Positions 35,728 through 42,713 of a DNA stretch of 64,000 nt are shown piece by piece. A program made the translations under genes and the position numbers. Every line of letters begins with the position of its first letter. Within the stretch, counting starts at the first letter, position 1. The notes beneath the pieces were generated by a model. That model was not told the origin of the DNA and searched no databases. It saw only the letters and a list, made by a program, of their open reading frames with translations. Source of the stretch: a bacterium (GTDB lineage: Bacteria; Verrucomicrobiota; Verrucomicrobiia; Limisphaerales; UBA11358); assembly GCA_021813325.1 (NCBI GenBank), contig JAKALA010000014.1, forward strand, positions 1 to 64,000. Direction: 5' to 3'.

Positions 35728-36252
35728 TTAACGGGATCGGAGAAAGCGATTTCGTTCGGCTCGATTGTGATTGTTCAAGTTTTCCTGCAAATCCGCCAGC
35801 GCATTTTGGATCATTCGGATGAAATTTTCGCAACTGGCAACCGATCCGCCAAAGGTCGTAACCGTATCACGTTCCGCCAGATCATCGGTCACCACCAGCA
35901 CTTCTCCATAAGGCTGAAACCGGGCGGCAGCACGTTCAATCAGGGAGTCGGCCGTCTGGCCGGCATTGGAAAAGAGCACCTCAACGGGTTTGCCGGCGGT
36001 GTTTTTGGGTTTGGTTTTGCGCGTGCCGCGTCCGTCAAAGAAAACGGTGACCGGCGTGCCACAGGCGTCCTGATATTGCGTCAGCATGTCCACCAACGCA
36101 TCGCGTGCGGTTTCAGAATGACGGACGGCACCCTCCGCCAGCTCCGGCCAGTTGTGGAGCAGGCTGTATGATTGATTTCCCTCAAATTTACGGTATCGTT
36201 CCAAAGCGTAAATCAGATTATAGCCGTCAACTAAAATACGAACCAGCGCCAT
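35728..36252 (-). CDS. YacP-like NYN-domain protein (putative RNase), integration target
   Basis: 174 residues of the NYN/PIN-like fold: 'RILVDGYNLIYAL' with the first acidic residue, 'PVTVFFDGRGTR', 'QTADSLIERAAARF' and 'VVTDDLAERDTV'. YacP/Rae1 cleaves mRNA on the ribosome in Bacillus, and a similar role is inferred. The first 30 or so codons use A/T-ending codons (TTA, GTT, ATT, AAT) unlike the rest of the gene. They abut the recombinase gene of the element, whose ATG overlaps this ATG on the other strand in CATG (36250-36253). A diverged copy of the first 15 codons sits at the far end of the element (42582-42626). Confidence 0.85.
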   Translation of the reverse strand: MALVRILVDGYNLIYALERYRKFEGNQSYSLLHNWPELAEGAVRHSETARDALVDMLTQYQDACGTPVTVFFDGRGTRKTKPKNTAGKPVEVLFSNAGQTADSLIERAAARFQPYGEVLVVTDDLAERDTVTTFGGSVASCENFIRMIQNALADLQENLNNHNRAERNRFLRSR

Positions 36253-37876
36253 GAGAAAAGCATATTCCTACCAAAGATTTTCGTCCATCAAACAAAAGGC
36301 CGGAGATTCAACGAAACGGCAGGCAGACGCAGCGGTGATTTTTTGCAAACAATTCGACTTAACACTTGTGGACACTTTCAGAGATGAAGGGATGAGCGGG
36401 TTCAAAGGGAAGAATTTTTCCAATGAATCAGCCTTGTCAGCATTTTTGAAATTGGTCGGAAACGGAACGGTGGAGCAAGGCTCCGTTCTGATAGTGGAAA
36501 ATATGGACAGGCTTTCGCGGCAATCAATTCTCCCCTGCCTTTCAAAATTTATTGAAATCATAAACAAAGGGGTTTCCGTCGGCGTGATTTCTCAAAATAA
36601 AATCTTGGACACCAAGAGCATCACAGAGAACCCGATGGAGTTAATGCTCGTGTTGGTGGAATTCGCGCGGGCAAACAATGAGTCCGAAACCAAATCCAAA
36701 CGGTCAAAATCCATTATCGCGGCAAAAATTGAAAGGGCAAACAAGGGTGAAAAAGTTTGGTTTGCCGCGCAAAAGCCAAGTTGGATTGTCGGACTCAAGG
36801 ATGGTGAATTTGTTTTGGATAATGACAGAGTAAAACTTGTAAAAAACATTTTTGCTCACTACTTGGCTGGCCACAGTTGCTCACGCATTGCCAACGACCT
36901 GAATAAATCCAAAATACCCACGTTACGGAAATTCAAAAACGGCATTTGGACAAATTCAACTGTCGCGTGTTTGCTCAAAAATAAAAACTGCATCGGCTGG
37001 ATAGGCATAAATGATTTTGAGCAGGACGATTTTTTTCCAGCAATCGTATCGGCGAAAGTTTTTCAACTGACGCAGCAGAAATTGGCGTTCAACGTCAAAA
37101 GCAGAGGCGGTAGCAAATACGGACTTGTCCGAAATTTGTTCAAGCATTTGCTGACCTGCTCGGAGTGCGGTCAAGTCATTGAAACTAAAATCGGCTCATA
37201 CGAAAATGTCAAAGGAACGACGAATCACTACGCGGATTATATCTGCCGAGGCGTGAAACACAAAAGCGGCTGCTCCAACAAAGGACGGATTTCTGTCCCT
37301 GAATTTGAAGCAAGAATTTTTCAATCCATTTTGAACTTGAATGATTTTAGCAAACAAACCCCGCCGCCGAATGATGTCTTGGAAGCATTGGAAAACAAAT
37401 TTGCAAAAATTCAGACCAGCATTGGCCGCTGCATGGAACTATTGGACGATGACGAATTGGCCGACATGAAAGAACTGTCCGTGAAACTTGCTCGGCTGAA
37501 CAAGGAAAAGGGGCAATTAGTAAAAAGTATTGAGGCGGAAAAAACCAAGATGACAGTCAGCAGCAATGCACCAAAGGCCATTGAAATGTTGCGCGACAAA
37601 TTCAGCAACGCGAACGCGCAGGTGGTCAATGGTGTTTTGCAACTGAAAGCCGTCAGCAAAAAAATGGTAGATGATGAGTTGGCGCGCATCAAAGAACATC
37701 TTAAATCTACGGAAGAACGGCAAAGGATTCGGAACATGATGCCAAGCATTTTTGAAGGTATTCAGATTAAATTCGGCAACGAACCGAAAGCCTGTTGTCG
37801 GTTTGTGGATGGAAAGACAATTTCTCTAACAATTAGAAAAGCCGGCGTGTTTTTTAATTCCATTTCGTTCAACTGA
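36251..37876 (+). CDS. Large serine recombinase (integrase/excisionase of the element)
   Basis: 541 residues. The N-terminal resolvase domain (to about 150) has the nucleophile Ser in 'SYQRFSSIKQ' and the Arg motif 'ENMDRLSRQ'. A recombinase domain follows (about 165-290, 'WIVGLKDGEFVLDNDRVKLV'). A zinc ribbon ('CSECGQ' near 304, 'CRGVKHKSGC' near 330) and a coiled-coil arm (about 375-490) complete the usual large serine integrase layout. It joins attP and attB without needing homology. The ATG overlaps the NYN start codon on the opposite strand, and no ribosome binding site is visible in the present junction, so its promoter probably forms only in the excised circle or lies inside the NYN gene. 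Confidence 0.9.
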   Translation: MRKAYSYQRFSSIKQKAGDSTKRQADAAVIFCKQFDLTLVDTFRDEGMSGFKGKNFSNESALSAFLKLVGNGTVEQGSVLIVENMDRLSRQSILPCLSKFIEIINKGVSVGVISQNKILDTKSITENPMELMLVLVEFARANNESETKSKRSKSIIAAKIERANKGEKVWFAAQKPSWIVGLKDGEFVLDNDRVKLVKNIFAHYLAGHSCSRIANDLNKSKIPTLRKFKNGIWTNSTVACLLKNKNCIGWIGINDFEQDDFFPAIVSAKVFQLTQQKLAFNVKSRGGSKYGLVRNLFKHLLTCSECGQVIETKIGSYENVKGTTNHYADYICRGVKHKSGCSNKGRISVPEFEARIFQSILNLNDFSKQTPPPNDVLEALENKFAKIQTSIGRCMELLDDDELADMKELSVKLARLNKEKGQLVKSIEAEKTKMTVSSNAPKAIEMLRDKFSNANAQVVNGVLQLKAVSKKMVDDELARIKEHLKSTEERQRIRNMMPSIFEGIQIKFGNEPKACCRFVDGKTISLTIRKAGVFFNSISFN

Positions 37877-37931
37877 AAAATTGCACATCCCGCTCGCCGT
37901 GGCGCGGCTCCTGTGTTCCAGTCCAGTTGTT

Positions 37932-38339
37932 ATGAAAAACAACATCATCAAAAACAAAACTGGAAACAAAAACGCGCAGTTGGCACTTGCTGACATCAAC
38001 GCCCAAATTGAGGCGCTAAACAACCAACGCACCGCGCTGGCCGAACCGCTCAAGGGTCGTTACGCGGAACTTCGCAAGGAGTTGACTGACGTGGAAATGG
38101 AAATTCGTGAACTTGATCCTGTGTGGAAGCCGGAGCCGATGAATGCCAAGGCCGAAACCAAGATTACGGAAATCCTAACGGCGCACGGCGCACCGATGGC
38201 CGCCGATGAAATTGTGGCCGCAGTGGGTGACGTGTTCACGCCATGGAAGGTCAAAAACACCCTGAAAAAGAAATCCACCGGCGCAAAGGCAGTGTTCACA
38301 GTCAACGACGGCAAATACGCCATGAAGGCAACGGCCTAA
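37932..38339 (+). CDS. Small coiled-coil plus winged-helix-like protein
   Basis: 135 residues from the ATG at 37932. Residues 10-60 form a coiled coil ('LALADINAQIEALNNQRTAL'). The C-terminal 75 residues ('ITEILTAHGAPMAADEIVAA', then 'TPWKVKNTLKKKSTGAKAVF') have the pattern of a winged helix ending in 'NDGKYAMKATA'. It may assist or regulate the recombinase, as a directionality factor for example; that is only inferred from position. A strong terminator follows at 38357. Confidence 0.6.
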   Translation: MKNNIIKNKTGNKNAQLALADINAQIEALNNQRTALAEPLKGRYAELRKELTDVEMEIRELDPVWKPEPMNAKAETKITEILTAHGAPMAADEIVAAVGDVFTPWKVKNTLKKKSTGAKAVFTVNDGKYAMKATA

Positions 38340-38356
38340 ACCACAGTCAAAATCAC

Positions 38357-38383
38357 AACCCCAGCAACCGCTGGGGTTTTTTT
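38357..38383 (+). terminator. Intrinsic terminator within the element
   Basis: AACCCCAGC (38357-38365), loop aacc, GCTGGGGTT (38370-38378) and seven T residues. Ends the recombinase-winged-helix transcript. Confidence 0.9.
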
Positions 38384-38519
38384 ATTGTGGCCATCCGCAA
38401 CGGTCGCGGGATTTTTCTAATCTTTTCGGAATTTAGCCAAAAAATAAAAACCTTCCGGCTGTTTTTTTTCACGCCAGCAAAATTCGCTCCTATTTATGAC
38501 TTGAACCAAGGTGGTCAAA

Positions 38520-38612
38520 ATGAGTGGTCAATCCATCATCCTCCAGCCGGACGATGTCATCTTGGGCAGGACATATTTTAATCCGACTTTGAAATCCGTC
38601 GTCGGAAGATAA
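38520..38612 (+). CDS. Possible 30-residue peptide
   Basis: ATG at 38520, TAA at 38610-38612, encoding 'MSGQSIILQPDDVILGRTYF' and ten more residues. It lies 24 bases before the HUH gene. No clear ribosome binding site and no recognised family; it could be a leader peptide. Confidence 0.25.
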   Translation: MSGQSIILQPDDVILGRTYFNPTLKSVVGR

Positions 38613-38636
38613 TTTATTTGTCAAATTCAGAACACG

Positions 38637-39152
38637 ATGAACACGCAACACGAAATAGACGATTACCTCACGACGCATCACCCAGAGTCAATCTTGCTCC
38701 ACCGGATTGAATGGTTGGTGTTCGGCCATGTGAGTTTTACAAAAAAGGTCAGCCACGCGAAGAAAGATGCACCGCGCATCCGTCGGTTTGTCGGTTTGCT
38801 GTTCGGCTTGGCTTCGGCCTGTGGAGTGAAGCCGCGCAGGTTGGTATATTTCCAAAATAACGAGGTCAAGCCAGAGACGGATTTTCACCACATCCATTTT
38901 TTGCTTGGGTCTCACGGCTTGGAAAAGTTCGCCGCGCCGGAAATCTGTGAGATGCTGGGCCAAAAGGCTGGTGAATTCGGCTTTGATGATTGCAAGTTTG
39001 CCCCATACGACCCGACAAAAGATGGAGTAGGCTACGTCACCAAGAGAGTTTTTCGGACGCTGGATAACGGTCAAAGGGTTGAAATCTTGCCTGACTTTTT
39101 CCTGTCCGATGCACTGATAAAAATAATTAAAGAAAAGGACAAACATGAATGA
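38637..39152 (+). CDS. Probable HUH endonuclease (rolling-circle Rep/relaxase-like)
   Basis: 171 residues. 'FGHVSFTKK' near residue 29 fits Rep motif 1. 'DFHHIHFLLGSHG' near 82 gives the metal-binding His-hydrophobic-His of motif 2. 'GVGYVTKRVF' near 136 supplies the catalytic Tyr with Lys three residues on (YxxK), as in motif 3. Such enzymes nick one strand to start rolling-circle replication or transfer. It heads a cluster of overlapping small genes. A helicase domain is absent, so the host helicase would be needed. The motifs are seen; the activity is inferred. Confidence 0.65.
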   Translation: MNTQHEIDDYLTTHHPESILLHRIEWLVFGHVSFTKKVSHAKKDAPRIRRFVGLLFGLASACGVKPRRLVYFQNNEVKPETDFHHIHFLLGSHGLEKFAAPEICEMLGQKAGEFGFDDCKFAPYDPTKDGVGYVTKRVFRTLDNGQRVEILPDFFLSDALIKIIKEKDKHE

Positions 39153-39327
39153 GAAAACACACGACGCAAGAGCCGCGAGAATTGACGCTCTTGCACATGA
39201 CATCATCGCCGACGCGAAGGCACGCGAGTTGGAACGAAGCCGACTTGCCGACGAAGGCATGGAAAAAATTCGACGCCACTTTGCCAGTGGTTCTAAATTG
39301 GAAGTGAGGTCAACATGGAAACACTAA
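39145..39327 (+). CDS. Small charged helical protein
   Basis: 60 residues, overlapping the HUH gene end by 8 bases and the next gene by 13. Almost entirely a charged helix ('ARIDALAHDIIADAKARELE', 'RSRLADEGMEKIRRHF'). Co-translated with the HUH protein, it may be an accessory factor. No family recognised. Confidence 0.5.
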   Translation: MNEKTHDARAARIDALAHDIIADAKARELERSRLADEGMEKIRRHFASGSKLEVRSTWKH

Positions 39328-39554
39328 CCGACCCAGCCAAAATCATTTCAATAATGAGGGTGATGTTGACCGAATTAGAACGCACGCTGTCCACCGCGCC
39401 AGAGCCGACGAATGAGAGTAATCACACCGGAGAATTGCAGACGCGGATTGACCGGCTGGATGCAGCCCTTAAAAAAAGTCAAGCCGCTGACCGTCGCCGT
39501 CGTGAGTTGGACAGAGAGAACCGCGCGAACTTTCCGCCCGCCAAAAAAAAGTGA
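39315..39554 (+). CDS. Small coiled-coil protein
   Basis: 79 residues. An N-terminal helix ('ISIMRVMLTELERTL') and a second charged helix ('LQTRIDRLDAALKKSQAADR') with a basic tail ending 'KKK'. It overlaps the preceding gene, so HUH and two helical peptides form one translationally coupled unit. No family recognised. Confidence 0.5.
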   Translation: METLTDPAKIISIMRVMLTELERTLSTAPEPTNESNHTGELQTRIDRLDAALKKSQAADRRRRELDRENRANFPPAKKK

Positions 39555-40051
39555 ACTTCTTAATTATAGAAAAACGTCCGCGCGGCTGACGCGTGTATGG
39601 TTGTCTGATTTGGACGGTCAATCCTGCACGTCAACCGCGATACGTTTTTACATACACCTCGCGCACCAAGCCGTGACGGAGTATAAAAAATTGTCAGTTC
39701 GTGATTTCGTGATAAACTGTCGTCCCCCGACGCGGAGGAGGGGTTTGGGGATTTTGAAACTTTCTATAATCCGCCCTATTCTGTCAGCCACGATACGGCT
39801 CCGCCAATGGTGTTGACCGTTCCACCCGCCCGCCGGACGTTGCCAGACGCAATCCACGCAAAAAGAACCCACGGCCAGAGAAATCCCAGACGTGGGTTGT
39901 GAACACGGTAACGATTACTCATAACTATCCGCACGCACCGACAAACTGCTGAAAAACGGCCAGTTCGCGCGGTTTTTACAAAGTTTTGTGTTGGCTATAT
40001 TTTGTAAATTTTCTTCGCCATCGCGCGGCTACCCGTGATACCTGGTTGTCT
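39555..40051. other. Non-coding stretch of the element with hairpin
   Basis: About 500 bases without a convincing gene; a 58-codon open frame near 39712-39902 has no start or family. AACCCACG (39866-39873) and CGTGGGTT (39891-39898) form a perfect 8-bp stem with a 17-base loop. The region lies just downstream of the HUH gene cluster and could hold its nicking origin, which I cannot demonstrate. Confidence 0.45.
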
Positions 40052-40714
40052 ATGAATAAAAAATACATTTCACTATTGAGAGTTTCGACAAGTCGCCAAG
40101 GCGAATCAAAATTAGGGCTTGAGGCGCAGAGGGCAGCCGTAGTCAATTTTGTGGAGTCGCTCAAGGGGCAGGCTGAAATCGTCCGTGAGTTCGTGGAAGT
40201 GGAATCCGGCAAGAAAACAGACCGGCCGGTTTTGGCCGAAGCCATCCGTGAATGCAAGGCCAACGGCTACACCCTTTTGGTGGCTAAACTTGACCGCCTT
40301 TCCCGTAATCTTCACTTCATCACCGCGCTCCAAAATTCCAAGGTGGATTTCGTTGCCGCCGACAATCCGCACGCTACGCCGTTCCTGATACATATTTTGG
40401 TCGCCGTGGCCGAACACGAACGGAATATGATTTCCAGTCGCACCAAGGCTGCCTTGGAAGCCGCTCGTAATCGTGGGGTTGTTTTTGGAAATCCACGTTA
40501 TGAGGAAGCAATCCCAAAGGCCAACGCGGCTTGGAAACAAATTGCCTCTGACCGCAACGCCAACCTCCGCCGCAAGGTGACAGAAATCATGGACGTGACC
40601 GGACTGACAAAATTAGTGGAAATTGCCAACGCCCTAAATTTGAGGGGTATCAAAACAAACCGTGGCTGTGAGTTCACCGCCACACAAGTTCACCGCCTCT
40701 TGAAAACTGTTTAA
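40052..40714 (+). CDS. Small serine recombinase (resolvase/invertase type)
   Basis: 220 residues from the ATG at 40052. The resolvase domain has the nucleophile Ser in 'SLLRVSTSRQG', 'VAKLDRLSRN' and the E-helix 'LIHILVAVAEHERNMISSRT'. The C-terminal 70 residues hold a helix-turn-helix ('LVEIANALNLRGIKTNRGCE'). Unlike the large integrase it has no zinc ribbon or coiled coil, so it more likely resolves dimers, inverts a segment or serves another element. 'GRYD'-type small protein downstream. Confidence 0.9.
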   Translation: MNKKYISLLRVSTSRQGESKLGLEAQRAAVVNFVESLKGQAEIVREFVEVESGKKTDRPVLAEAIRECKANGYTLLVAKLDRLSRNLHFITALQNSKVDFVAADNPHATPFLIHILVAVAEHERNMISSRTKAALEAARNRGVVFGNPRYEEAIPKANAAWKQIASDRNANLRRKVTEIMDVTGLTKLVEIANALNLRGIKTNRGCEFTATQVHRLLKTV

Positions 40715-40719
40715 CACTG

Positions 40720-40750
40720 ATCCCGTCCGCGCAGACGCGGACGGGATTTC
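40720..40750 (+). terminator. Intrinsic terminator
   Basis: ATCCCGTCCGCG (40720-40731), loop caga, CGCGGACGGGAT (40736-40747) followed by TTTC. Ends the resolvase gene. Confidence 0.85.
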
Positions 40751-40765
40751 AAACGACACTACGCT

Positions 40766-40948
40766 ATGAAAGACCAATTCATCCGAAACCGTGAGGGGAA
40801 AATCATCGGTCGCCAAGACGGAAATTGGCTCCGCGACGGAGCCGGAAAAATTCTTGGACGCTACGACGCATGGGACAATCGGACACGCGACCGCGCCGGA
40901 AAAATTGTCGGAAGTGGCAAGAATCAGATGTTCCGGTTACTGAAATAG
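40766..40948 (+). CDS. 60-residue repeat protein ('GKIxG' repeats)
   Basis: Three imperfect repeats of about 14-20 residues carry the pattern Arg/Asp-x-x-Gly-Lys-Ile-x-Gly ('NREGKIIGRQD', 'DGAGKILGRYD', 'DRAGKIVGSG'). This resembles a short beta-hairpin repeat, each turn ending in Gly-Arg. It has its own terminator upstream and downstream, so it is expressed separately. Function unknown. Confidence 0.55.
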   Translation: MKDQFIRNREGKIIGRQDGNWLRDGAGKILGRYDAWDNRTRDRAGKIVGSGKNQMFRLLK

Positions 40949-40951
40949 AAA

Positions 40952-40976
40952 ACCCCACCGGTTTTGCCGCTGGGGT
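40952..40976. terminator. Hairpin between convergent genes of the element
   Basis: ACCCCA-C-CGG (40952-40961), loop ttttg, CCG-C-TGGGGT (40967-40976): a 9-bp stem with one C-C mismatch, between the repeat-protein gene and the convergent LamG gene. Confidence 0.6.
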
Positions 40977-40999
40977 GAGGTGATTGCTTACAGAAATGA

Positions 41000-41956
41000 T
41001 TACGGAGCCAACTGTAATCGGAAGAAAAGTTGGTTCCAATCGCTTACATTCCAGTAATTGGTGGATTGCCAATTTGAATTGGTGGCAGTGAAAACGGAGC
41101 CTTGATTCGTCCAGTTTATCAAATCAGACGATGCTTGAACTTGATAATTTGACCCCGCCCATAGATTGTTTGACGTGAGATAAACTGCCTTTTGAATGTT
41201 GACGATTGGGGCAGATTCAAGGGCAAATAACTGCTGGACTTCGTTTGTTGACAAGGCGCGGTTGTAAATACGAATGTCATCTATGAAATTGTTTGAAGAA
41301 AACCCACTGTTGCCCGGTCCGCTTGGGCTGGTCAACACAGCATATTGCTGTGACGGATACACAAATCCAAATATGTCCCCGCCTTCTCGGATGCTGCGAT
41401 TGAATGGAACCCGTTGACCGTTGAAATATACTTGGGCATTGGTGATTGCGCCTGAATACACCACAACGATTTGAGACCAGTTAGTAGAAATTGGCATTTG
41501 AAAAAACGCCAATCCGCCAGAGCCATTGTCGAGCCAGAATTCTCCATCGGAAGCCAGATTATTGCCACCAATCGTGGAATTGAAAAAACTCACATAATTC
41601 GCACTTGGTTTTGGCCCCCAGCCCGAAGTTGTGTTCGCGGGATAGGCTCCAACTCGCACCCATTCGCTGATGGTTCGTGAATCATTTGAACCGGCATAAA
41701 TAAGGTTGGGCGCCGACATCGCTTGAGACAACACGGCAGCAGAACTTGCCCTTCCGAATCTGTCAACGGCTAGAGGAATGACTGAATTTGTAATGTTATA
41801 TCCATTTCCGCTGGCATCATTCGCGCTTCCGTTGAACGGATAATACGCGACGAGGCCATTGGTGAGGAATGTTTGGGCTTGAACCTGAACGGCCAAAGCC
41901 GCCGTGATTGTGAGAATTCCGAATAACGATTTGTTTGTTTTCATAATTGTTTTCAT
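41000..41956 (-). CDS. Exported LamG-domain protein (cargo)
   Basis: 318 residues. Signal peptide about 1-28 ('LFGILTITAALAVQVQAQ'). The concanavalin-like LamG-3 domain (about 32-250) starts with 'GLVAYYPFNGSANDASGNGY', the usual opening, and ends with 'NFIDDIRIYNRALSTNEVQQ'. The C-terminal 65 residues ('NYQVQASSDLINWTNQGSVF' to 'FFRLQLAP') are a module common at the ends of exported proteins of this phylum. Probably a carbohydrate-binding surface protein. It is the only obvious cargo in the element and points toward the resolvase. Confidence 0.82.
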   Translation of the reverse strand: MKTIMKTNKSLFGILTITAALAVQVQAQTFLTNGLVAYYPFNGSANDASGNGYNITNSVIPLAVDRFGRASSAAVLSQAMSAPNLIYAGSNDSRTISEWVRVGAYPANTTSGWGPKPSANYVSFFNSTIGGNNLASDGEFWLDNGSGGLAFFQMPISTNWSQIVVVYSGAITNAQVYFNGQRVPFNRSIREGGDIFGFVYPSQQYAVLTSPSGPGNSGFSSNNFIDDIRIYNRALSTNEVQQLFALESAPIVNIQKAVYLTSNNLWAGSNYQVQASSDLINWTNQGSVFTATNSNWQSTNYWNVSDWNQLFFRLQLAP

Positions 41957-42124
41957 TTCGTTGGGAAATTAAAACGCCCACGTCAGCCACGGCAAGCCTC
42001 ATGCTCGCCCTTTGTTGACGAACAAACATTTGAACCTTCCAGCCACAGAACGCAAGTAAAATCCCTAAAAACTAGGCGATAACGACATGGTCAGTTTCCG
42101 TAGTTCGTGTTTTCTAAAGGGTTG

Positions 42125-42346
42125 ATGTCGTCAATCCAAAAACACCGCCGTCTTTTGGGTGAGGCAGTTCGCGCCACACGCAAGAAGGCAGGAATCAGTC
42201 AAGAGAAGTTGGCAGAGAAAGCCGACCTGTCCACGGTATTTATCAGCAGAATTGAACGAGGGGTTGAATCGCCATCAGTAGATAATTTGGTGAAAATCGC
42301 CCGCGCCTTGGGCAGTCGTGTCCGCAGCCTCGTCAGTGGTTTTTAG
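42125..42346 (+). CDS. XRE-family regulator of the element
   Basis: 73 residues from the ATG at 42125, preceded by AAAGGG at 42116-42121. An earlier ATG at 42107 lacks such a site. Nearly all helix-turn-helix: 'RRLLGEAVRATRKKAGISQE', 'LAEKADLSTVFISRIERGVE', 'VDNLVKIARALG'. Likely controls element maintenance or excision genes. Followed by a terminator at 42467. Confidence 0.8.
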   Translation: MSSIQKHRRLLGEAVRATRKKAGISQEKLAEKADLSTVFISRIERGVESPSVDNLVKIARALGSRVRSLVSGF

Positions 42347-42466
42347 TTCTGAATCGGAATCGCCTACTGTAACCAATACAGCCAGCCGGTTCGTTCAAAA
42401 TTTGGTGTGGCTATGGCCTGTCATGTGGCTGGGAAGTATTCAAGGAATGAGGGCTGGCCTTGCGCC

Positions 42467-42488
42467 AACCGTTCACAGAACGGTTTTT
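42467..42488 (+). terminator. Intrinsic terminator
   Basis: AACCGTT (42467-42473), loop cacag, AACGGTT (42479-42485) running into TTTTT. Ends the XRE transcript near the right end of the element. Confidence 0.8.
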
Positions 42489-42575
42489 CTCTATCGGCGG
42501 AAGCGGTTCTGCCATCCAACGTCTAAAAACCCTCAAGAACAAAGGGGATTGCCTGAAACGAAAATTTAGGTATTA

Positions 42576-42626
42576 TCAATAATACAACAGCGAATATCCG
42601 TCGATCAAGATGCGCACCAACGCCAT
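42576..42626 (-). pseudogene. Displaced 5' end of a NYN-domain gene
   Basis: Reads 'MALVRILIDGYSLLYY' from an ATG at 42626 and then stops. It matches the first 13-15 residues of the NYN protein at 36252, with codons that differ mainly at third positions (about 31 of 45 bases identical) and are richer in G and C, like the chromosome. Best explained as the native gene start left behind when the element joined its own version to the gene body. Confidence 0.65.
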
Positions 42627-42713
42627 GGCCAAAGGGTAACGTTTCCTGGCGCCGGGAGAAAACGATTTTCCGGTTCGTGAATTGACTTTTTCTTTGAGTC
42701 GAAATGCCGTTTA

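Follow-up and report, generated by a model that had tools for sequence, protein, structure and literature searches.

Replacement of gene 5′ ends by integrating elements is already known, from SXT/R391 at prfC and from the dusA islands. SXT/R391 are large conjugative elements with a tyrosine integrase, and the integrases of the dusA islands are likewise of the tyrosine type, a family other than that of the large serine recombinases (LSRs). SCC elements, whose Ccr proteins are LSRs, enter rlmH at its 3′ end, and this target gene is kept working. The dusA islands and prophages, for example IMEVchUSA3, enter a protein gene at its 5′ end and replace the promoter and the N-terminus (PMC8409611, PMC4482086), and a weaker promoter has been measured at dusA after insertion of an element (PMC8409611). 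For the SXT/R391 ICE in prfC, the work of Hochhut and Waldor (1999), as summarized in PMC8409611, describes a 5′-end target that receives a new promoter and N-terminus. According to PMC4701971, streptococcal ICEs with serine-integrase triplets disrupt mutT when they insert there, and ICEs with tyrosine integrases that enter a gene at its 5′ end do not alter its N-terminus. A literature search of limited breadth returned no description of a serine integrase with a translated attP arm.

The locus reported here lies in a window of 64,000 nucleotides, the whole stretch of DNA analysed, on contig C91 of the 4.28-Mb draft genome of a Limisphaerales (Verrucomicrobiota) MAG, coded G000. Named relatives of its NYN protein come mostly from MAGs of Limisphaerales or Verrucomicrobia subdivision 3. 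It is highly probable, judging from the sequence, that a small LSR element cut this NYN gene near its start and put its own version in place. At the level of DNA the mechanism is clear and comparison supports it well; its functional consequences are predicted. The gene and the ends of the element comprise the following features.

35728–36252, minus strand: chimeric NYN_YacP (Rae1-like) gene, 174 aa; Pfam PF05991, E=1e-31; PDB 5mq8/5mq9 by profile and by fold
36214–36252, minus strand: element-borne mimic of codons 1–13, MALVRILVDGYNL, with the invariant Asp9; same protein in 5 elements
36163–36213, minus strand: linker codons 14–30, overlapping the attP left arm; constant length and no stop in 5 elements
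~36163–36192, minus strand: attP left arm, overlapping linker codons
36161–36162, minus strand: attL crossover dinucleotide CT, with which codon 31 begins (Leu; codon 13 in the native gene)
36161–42590, unstranded: integrated element, ~6.43 kb between two CT crossover sites
42559–42588, minus strand: attP right arm, forming a dyad with the left arm
42588–42626, minus strand: displaced native NYN start, codons 1–13 and then a stop (MALVRILIDGYSLLYY before the stop); codon 13 is shared with the crossover CT

A YacP-like NYN domain with the conserved first-strand Asp is present in the window's gene, which is intact (36252–35728, minus strand), as an earlier note on this DNA had stated. That note had also described about 30 AT-ending first codons, a second copy of the start that stops at the far end, and differences between the two copies mainly at silent positions, and all three descriptions hold: the first 31 codons of the left copy, which reads MALVRILVDGYNLIYALERYRKFEGNQSYSLLHNWPEL, are AT-rich, the second copy occupies 42626–42579 (minus strand), and comparison of the copies recovers the silent bias. 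Its proposal that the element swaps in its own coding start stands as regards the separate coding version, and fails as regards equal length, for 18 residues are gained and the attP arm is itself translated. The element contributes 31 codons, namely the mimic of residues 1–13 and ~18 codons that are largely the attP arm read in frame, and the chimeric protein is 18 residues longer than the native one, the extra residues sitting between Asp-Gly and Tyr-Ser-Leu-Leu. Asp9, invariant in 58 sequences, is presumably catalytic, as in NYN/PIN enzymes generally.

When attP was rebuilt by joining the element ends, the best dyad centre over the whole stretch was the CT of the Leu codon, both in G000 and in G042, a second occupied genome. 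The dyad matches at 13/20, 17/25 and 21/30 positions in G000, a value reached by 0/2000 shuffles for the 25- and 30-base arms, and at 12/20 in G042. The two ends have only CTG in common at the junction in G000, and CAGCCTG in G042; the attR-side crossover CT is at 42589–42590. Dyad arms round a 2-bp core CT, with likeness only near the core, constitute an attP/attB layout typical of large serine recombinases. The excised circle is expected to contain the attP junction ...CATACAGC-CT-GTTGTAT..., and the deduced attB is GACGGATATTCG-CT-GCTCCACAACTGG. The left arm of the dyad lies in NYN codons, and most of the linker is accordingly integrase site translated in frame. A first guess, which placed the crossover at a shared TA/ATA in the Tyr codon, was dropped, since G042 and the attP dyad put it at CT. 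The left boundary of 36224 given in the earlier note has to be moved to codon 31 (36161–36162), ~60 bp beyond the left repeat described there. A tRNA scan of the window was empty, so this is not a tRNA-type integration site.

The element carries the following genes.

36251–37876, plus strand: large serine recombinase, 541 aa; Pfam Resolvase, Recombinase and Zn_ribbon_recom; PHROG 95 integrase, E=4e-64
37881–38339, plus strand: small ORF beside the LSR, 54–78% identity in L045, L046 and L047
39986–40714, plus strand: second, small serine recombinase (resolvase/invertase-like), with a 40% homologue within the G042 element
41000–41956, minus strand: Laminin_G_3-domain protein, cargo, by domain match
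42107–42346, plus strand: Cro/C1-type HTH regulator, by domain match

We assigned proteins to the LSR class by a Resolvase domain followed by Recombinase and zinc-ribbon domains in about 450–650 aa. The window's enzyme has this integrase-type order, with all three domains above cut-off, and its matches to CcrA/CcrB are weak. Its ATG and that of NYN overlap head-to-head (CATG, 36250–36253). In G014 the recombinase frame has ATA (L044:6903) where other elements have ATG (window 36251), so the recombinase start codon must differ there. Homologues of the small ORF adjoin LSRs at L045:12606–13148, L046:9032–9412 and L047:2830–3306; the C-terminal part of the small protein is conserved in four elements (ADEIV.AVG.VFTPWKVKNTLKKKSTGAKAVFTVNDGK), and it is a candidate directionality or accessory factor. 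The LSR beside the L046 copy (L002/L046), of 27% identity, lies on contig C99 of G000 itself; this LSR is the sole other match in the G000 genome, in which a second copy of the element was not found. A small serine recombinase is present in both fully bounded elements (window 39986–40714; L045:7285–7968). No conjugation genes were recognised in the 6.4-kb element, which the attachment sites and the integrase suggest to be mobile. Recombinase relatives were not found in viral contigs with the few patterns searched, and among 388 genomes of the phylum only the window's own recombinase reached E 1e-60.

Empty relatives read MALVRILVDGYSLLHNWPEL, without the 18-residue insert, and homologues from the genus and the order read MALVRILVDGYSLLHNWPELAEG at the insertion place, again with no insert. 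Joining the right copy at the Leu codon to the NYN body yields the usual native protein. In G042, where both ends lie on one contig (L045), the attR start agrees at 39/39 bases with the nearest empty relative, L121, which is its sister at SH-aLRT 98, and the attL head agrees at 30/39. This settles the far-end copy as the native one, which is how the earlier note had read the GC-richer copy; the contrary outcome that it had named, empty sites matching the left copy, failed on the same figures. Other elements at the same target, for which the note had called for a search, occur in four more genomes. These genomes (G012, G014, G042 and G048) are of the same genus and have the same layout, n=5 with the window, and the distance from head to crossover is exactly 31 codons in 5/5. 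The identical layout in five genomes and the 39/39 agreement in G042 exclude a chance origin.

Occupied sites are scattered on the host (NYN-body) tree, many inner branches of which are weak, and are paired with empty sisters; relic sites are scattered too, which points to several insertions. The five heads probably derive from one ancestral element, so their conserved features are not independent. Two occupied sites are decayed with their heads intact: in G012 the NYN–lspA gap is ~460 bp and holds only 51 recombinase codons, and in G048 the recombinase is a frameshifted piece. In five further genomes (G003, G011, G016, G018 and G061) remnants of the recombinase N-terminus lie antisense, with exactly the same overlap with the NYN start. 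Relic scores were 21 to 92, against ≤11 in other empty genes and 16 for the native attR copy in L140, G011 (29) and G018 (21) being the weakest and least certain. NYN has its native length without the linker in 5/5 relics, and an intact recombinase was found there in 0/5. G011 also retains, 2 kb away, a native start that runs into a stop (L140:8002), and behind it comes an arm similar to the right arm of attP. We infer that insertion was followed by decay and, later, by removal of the linker; had native DNA of a relative replaced this stretch instead, the result would be indistinguishable. That NYN has its native length in five relic lineages suggests that, without mobility, the insert may be slightly deleterious. 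Relatives show that the supplied start can persist on the host gene once its element has decayed.

The 17 linker codons contain 16, 12 and 13 variable columns by codon position. The linker adjoins the active-site strand and is of constant length in the five elements, as would be expected of a useful regulatory or targeting segment that alters the NYN enzyme to the element's benefit. Such a use is unlikely, given that the amino acids drift freely, that the three codon positions vary alike and that the relic lineages are without a linker; what has been retained is an open frame of equal length. AlphaFold2 models gave a pLDDT of 84 for the native protein (L087) and 75 for the chimera, with the same strand and helix order in both. 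The extra residues form a helix (13–20) and then a low-confidence loop (20–27) after strand 1, and the best PDB matches of the chimera by fold are Rae1/YacP 5mq9 and 5mq8. With moderate model confidence, the chimera is predicted to keep the NYN fold, and it may be catalytically active.

Serine integrases commonly disrupt their targets, for example streptococcal mutT and hsdM (PMC4701971), and the element might merely have disrupted NYN, leaving a dead gene behind an upstream ORF that is a chance or decaying captured fragment. However, the 31-codon head is open and in frame in 5/5 elements, and across these elements codons 1–13 of the mimic have undergone at least 12 substitutions, all of them silent, with the protein identical (p about 4e-8, taking about 24% of substitutions as silent by chance). 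NYN bodies at occupied sites retain their invariant residues and change mainly at silent positions, like those of empty sisters, and the head is retained after loss of the recombinase. We therefore regard a dead gene as very improbable.

The head might alternatively be conserved for the recombinase, as a promoter or leader on the opposite strand, and not for the NYN protein. Because the recombinase start lies head-to-head at CATG, its promoter must lie in NYN codons, and in some heads boxes resembling TAAAAT occur within the AT-rich codons. Against this, variation tracks the NYN codons, with 0 changes at second codon positions of the mimic across the five elements and silent changes only, and both the head and its reading frame are retained at sites with only a fossil recombinase; we give this explanation very little credence. 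A double role of the head, as recombinase promoter and NYN coding sequence, is possible and would leave the coding role in place. The two copies of the first codons flanking the element could also stem from a target duplication, made by a DDE-type insertion or another duplication that copied the native start, with later divergence of the copies. This can practically be dismissed: the G042 copies differ at 9/39 bases, although the empty sister has exactly the sequence of the far copy; the extra codons in the left copy pair as a dyad with the opposite end; and an integrase-type LSR is present.

Signals for expression were found upstream of both starts.

36259–36264, minus strand: −10-like box TATGCT, opposite recombinase codons 3–5 and exactly 6 nt upstream of the NYN ATG
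42633–42638, minus strand: native leaderless-type −10 box TACCCT, upstream of the displaced native start
near 42659–42661, minus strand: native −35-like T-run

TANNNT stands exactly 6 nt before the start in 42/57 NYN genes without a head (the five relics counted in), versus about one per other position, and native upstream regions have a T-run at −35. In most Limisphaerales (loci L087–L163) this combination looks like a conserved leaderless promoter, and from its sequence we assign the native pattern to the leaderless promoter type. TANNNT occurs at the equal 6-nt spacing in 5/5 heads, within recombinase codons on the opposite strand, and the box brought by the head is a probable promoter box. 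A profile of the native −35 found no native-type −35 in the upstream region supplied by the element. As regards the earlier note's suggestion that the element would gain control over expression of the gene, the −10 box arrives with the head, the native-type −35 does not. Transcription from the supplied box and translation from the supplied ATG would maintain NYN expression, which may be kept but changed after insertion and could come under the control of the element.

The nearest other recombinases, at 31–36% identity in G018, G003 and G060 and at 44–45% in G168, of another family, are encoded in divergent orientation next to a Nudix gene's 5′ end. Most native starts of this gene have M-[ASP]-LPYKIATLLY, and occupied ones read MKSKVCLDFQIATLLY, VKDKVCLDFQ, VNPKLCQHFQ or VLNHHITTLLY. 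The other end in G003 carries the native Nudix start MPLPYKIATLFWRY, followed by a stop (L164:10316); the two ends have 14 bp in common, and the joined attP has a dyad of 18/25 around AC. In the recombinase tree the NYN group is sister to the Nudix group (SH-aLRT 98); the long-branch rows (comM, dprA) of this tree are not reliably placed. The sister clade does the same at its target, supplying a new start and ~nine codons. Nine native Nudix starts tested had no leaderless −10 box, which means that the box before NYN is no feature of upstream regions in general. At other targets, an LSR diverges from a comM-like gene in L038 (G016), whose start looks truncated (MRVGCWICKFVGIDHSTINLAPAD...), as it would be if the supplied head failed to give the lost N-terminus back. 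In L041 (G002) and L042 (G015) LSRs lie within apparent dprA genes, of which a truncated N-terminal part is left; the target here would be a competence gene.

We propose that the LSR element enters at the CT dinucleotide in Leu codon 13 of the conserved NYN_YacP (Rae1-like) gene, where insertion would part the native promoter, start codon and invariant-Asp strand from the gene body. Because the attP and attB arms of serine integrases are unlike, sequence identity cannot provide a seamless repair. The element would keep its attP arm open in the NYN frame and place before it a second coding version of residues 1–13 with a −10 box at leaderless spacing, and the fused gene would encode a complete NYN protein carrying 18 extra residues after its first strand. 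More broadly, we think it likely that in this serine-integrase clade attP doubles as translated coding DNA: its elements would enter core genes near the start, give back a promoter box, an ATG and, where it was cut away, the strand with the invariant Asp, and tolerate the inserted peptide that their own attP arm encodes. The start could outlive the element, and repeated past invasions would have remodelled the beginning of a core gene in several lineages of Limisphaerales. A translated attP arm with a second gene start before it is a plausible way for serine integrases to restore a gene that they cut. It predicts that the codons carried depend on what the cut removes; 31 codons are carried by the NYN elements, whose cut falls behind the invariant Asp, and ~nine by the Nudix elements, whose cut takes off nothing evidently essential. 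The fossils suggest that such elements can change the promoter and N-terminus of a core gene lastingly, and that comparison of gene starts can uncover past insertions.

With its entry into a 5′ coding end and its new in-frame start, the NYN element is of the 5′-end-replacing type. It resembles the dusA islands in entering the 5′ end, in putting element sequence in the place of the promoter and N-terminus, and in giving back the first beta strand. The new N-terminus of IMEVchUSA3 has the native length (61% identity over 35 aa), whereas the NYN element adds 18 residues and does not restore the length; unlike in the dusA islands, an attP arm that bears no relation to the target is translated as part of the extra residues, and the replaced strand carries an invariant Asp. 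As far as SXT/R391 is summarized in the source cited above, it shares the 5′-end target, the new N-terminus and, putatively, the new promoter, and differs from the NYN element, which has 6.4 kb, an LSR and no recognised conjugation genes. The streptococcal mutT ICEs, like the Nudix relatives here, have serine integrases and a Nudix-type target; they are described as disrupting it, whereas the Nudix relatives supply a new start and ~nine codons. The SCC/Ccr recombinases and the window's LSR are related in domain make-up, and rlmH is cut at its 3′ end, whereas NYN has its 5′ end replaced.
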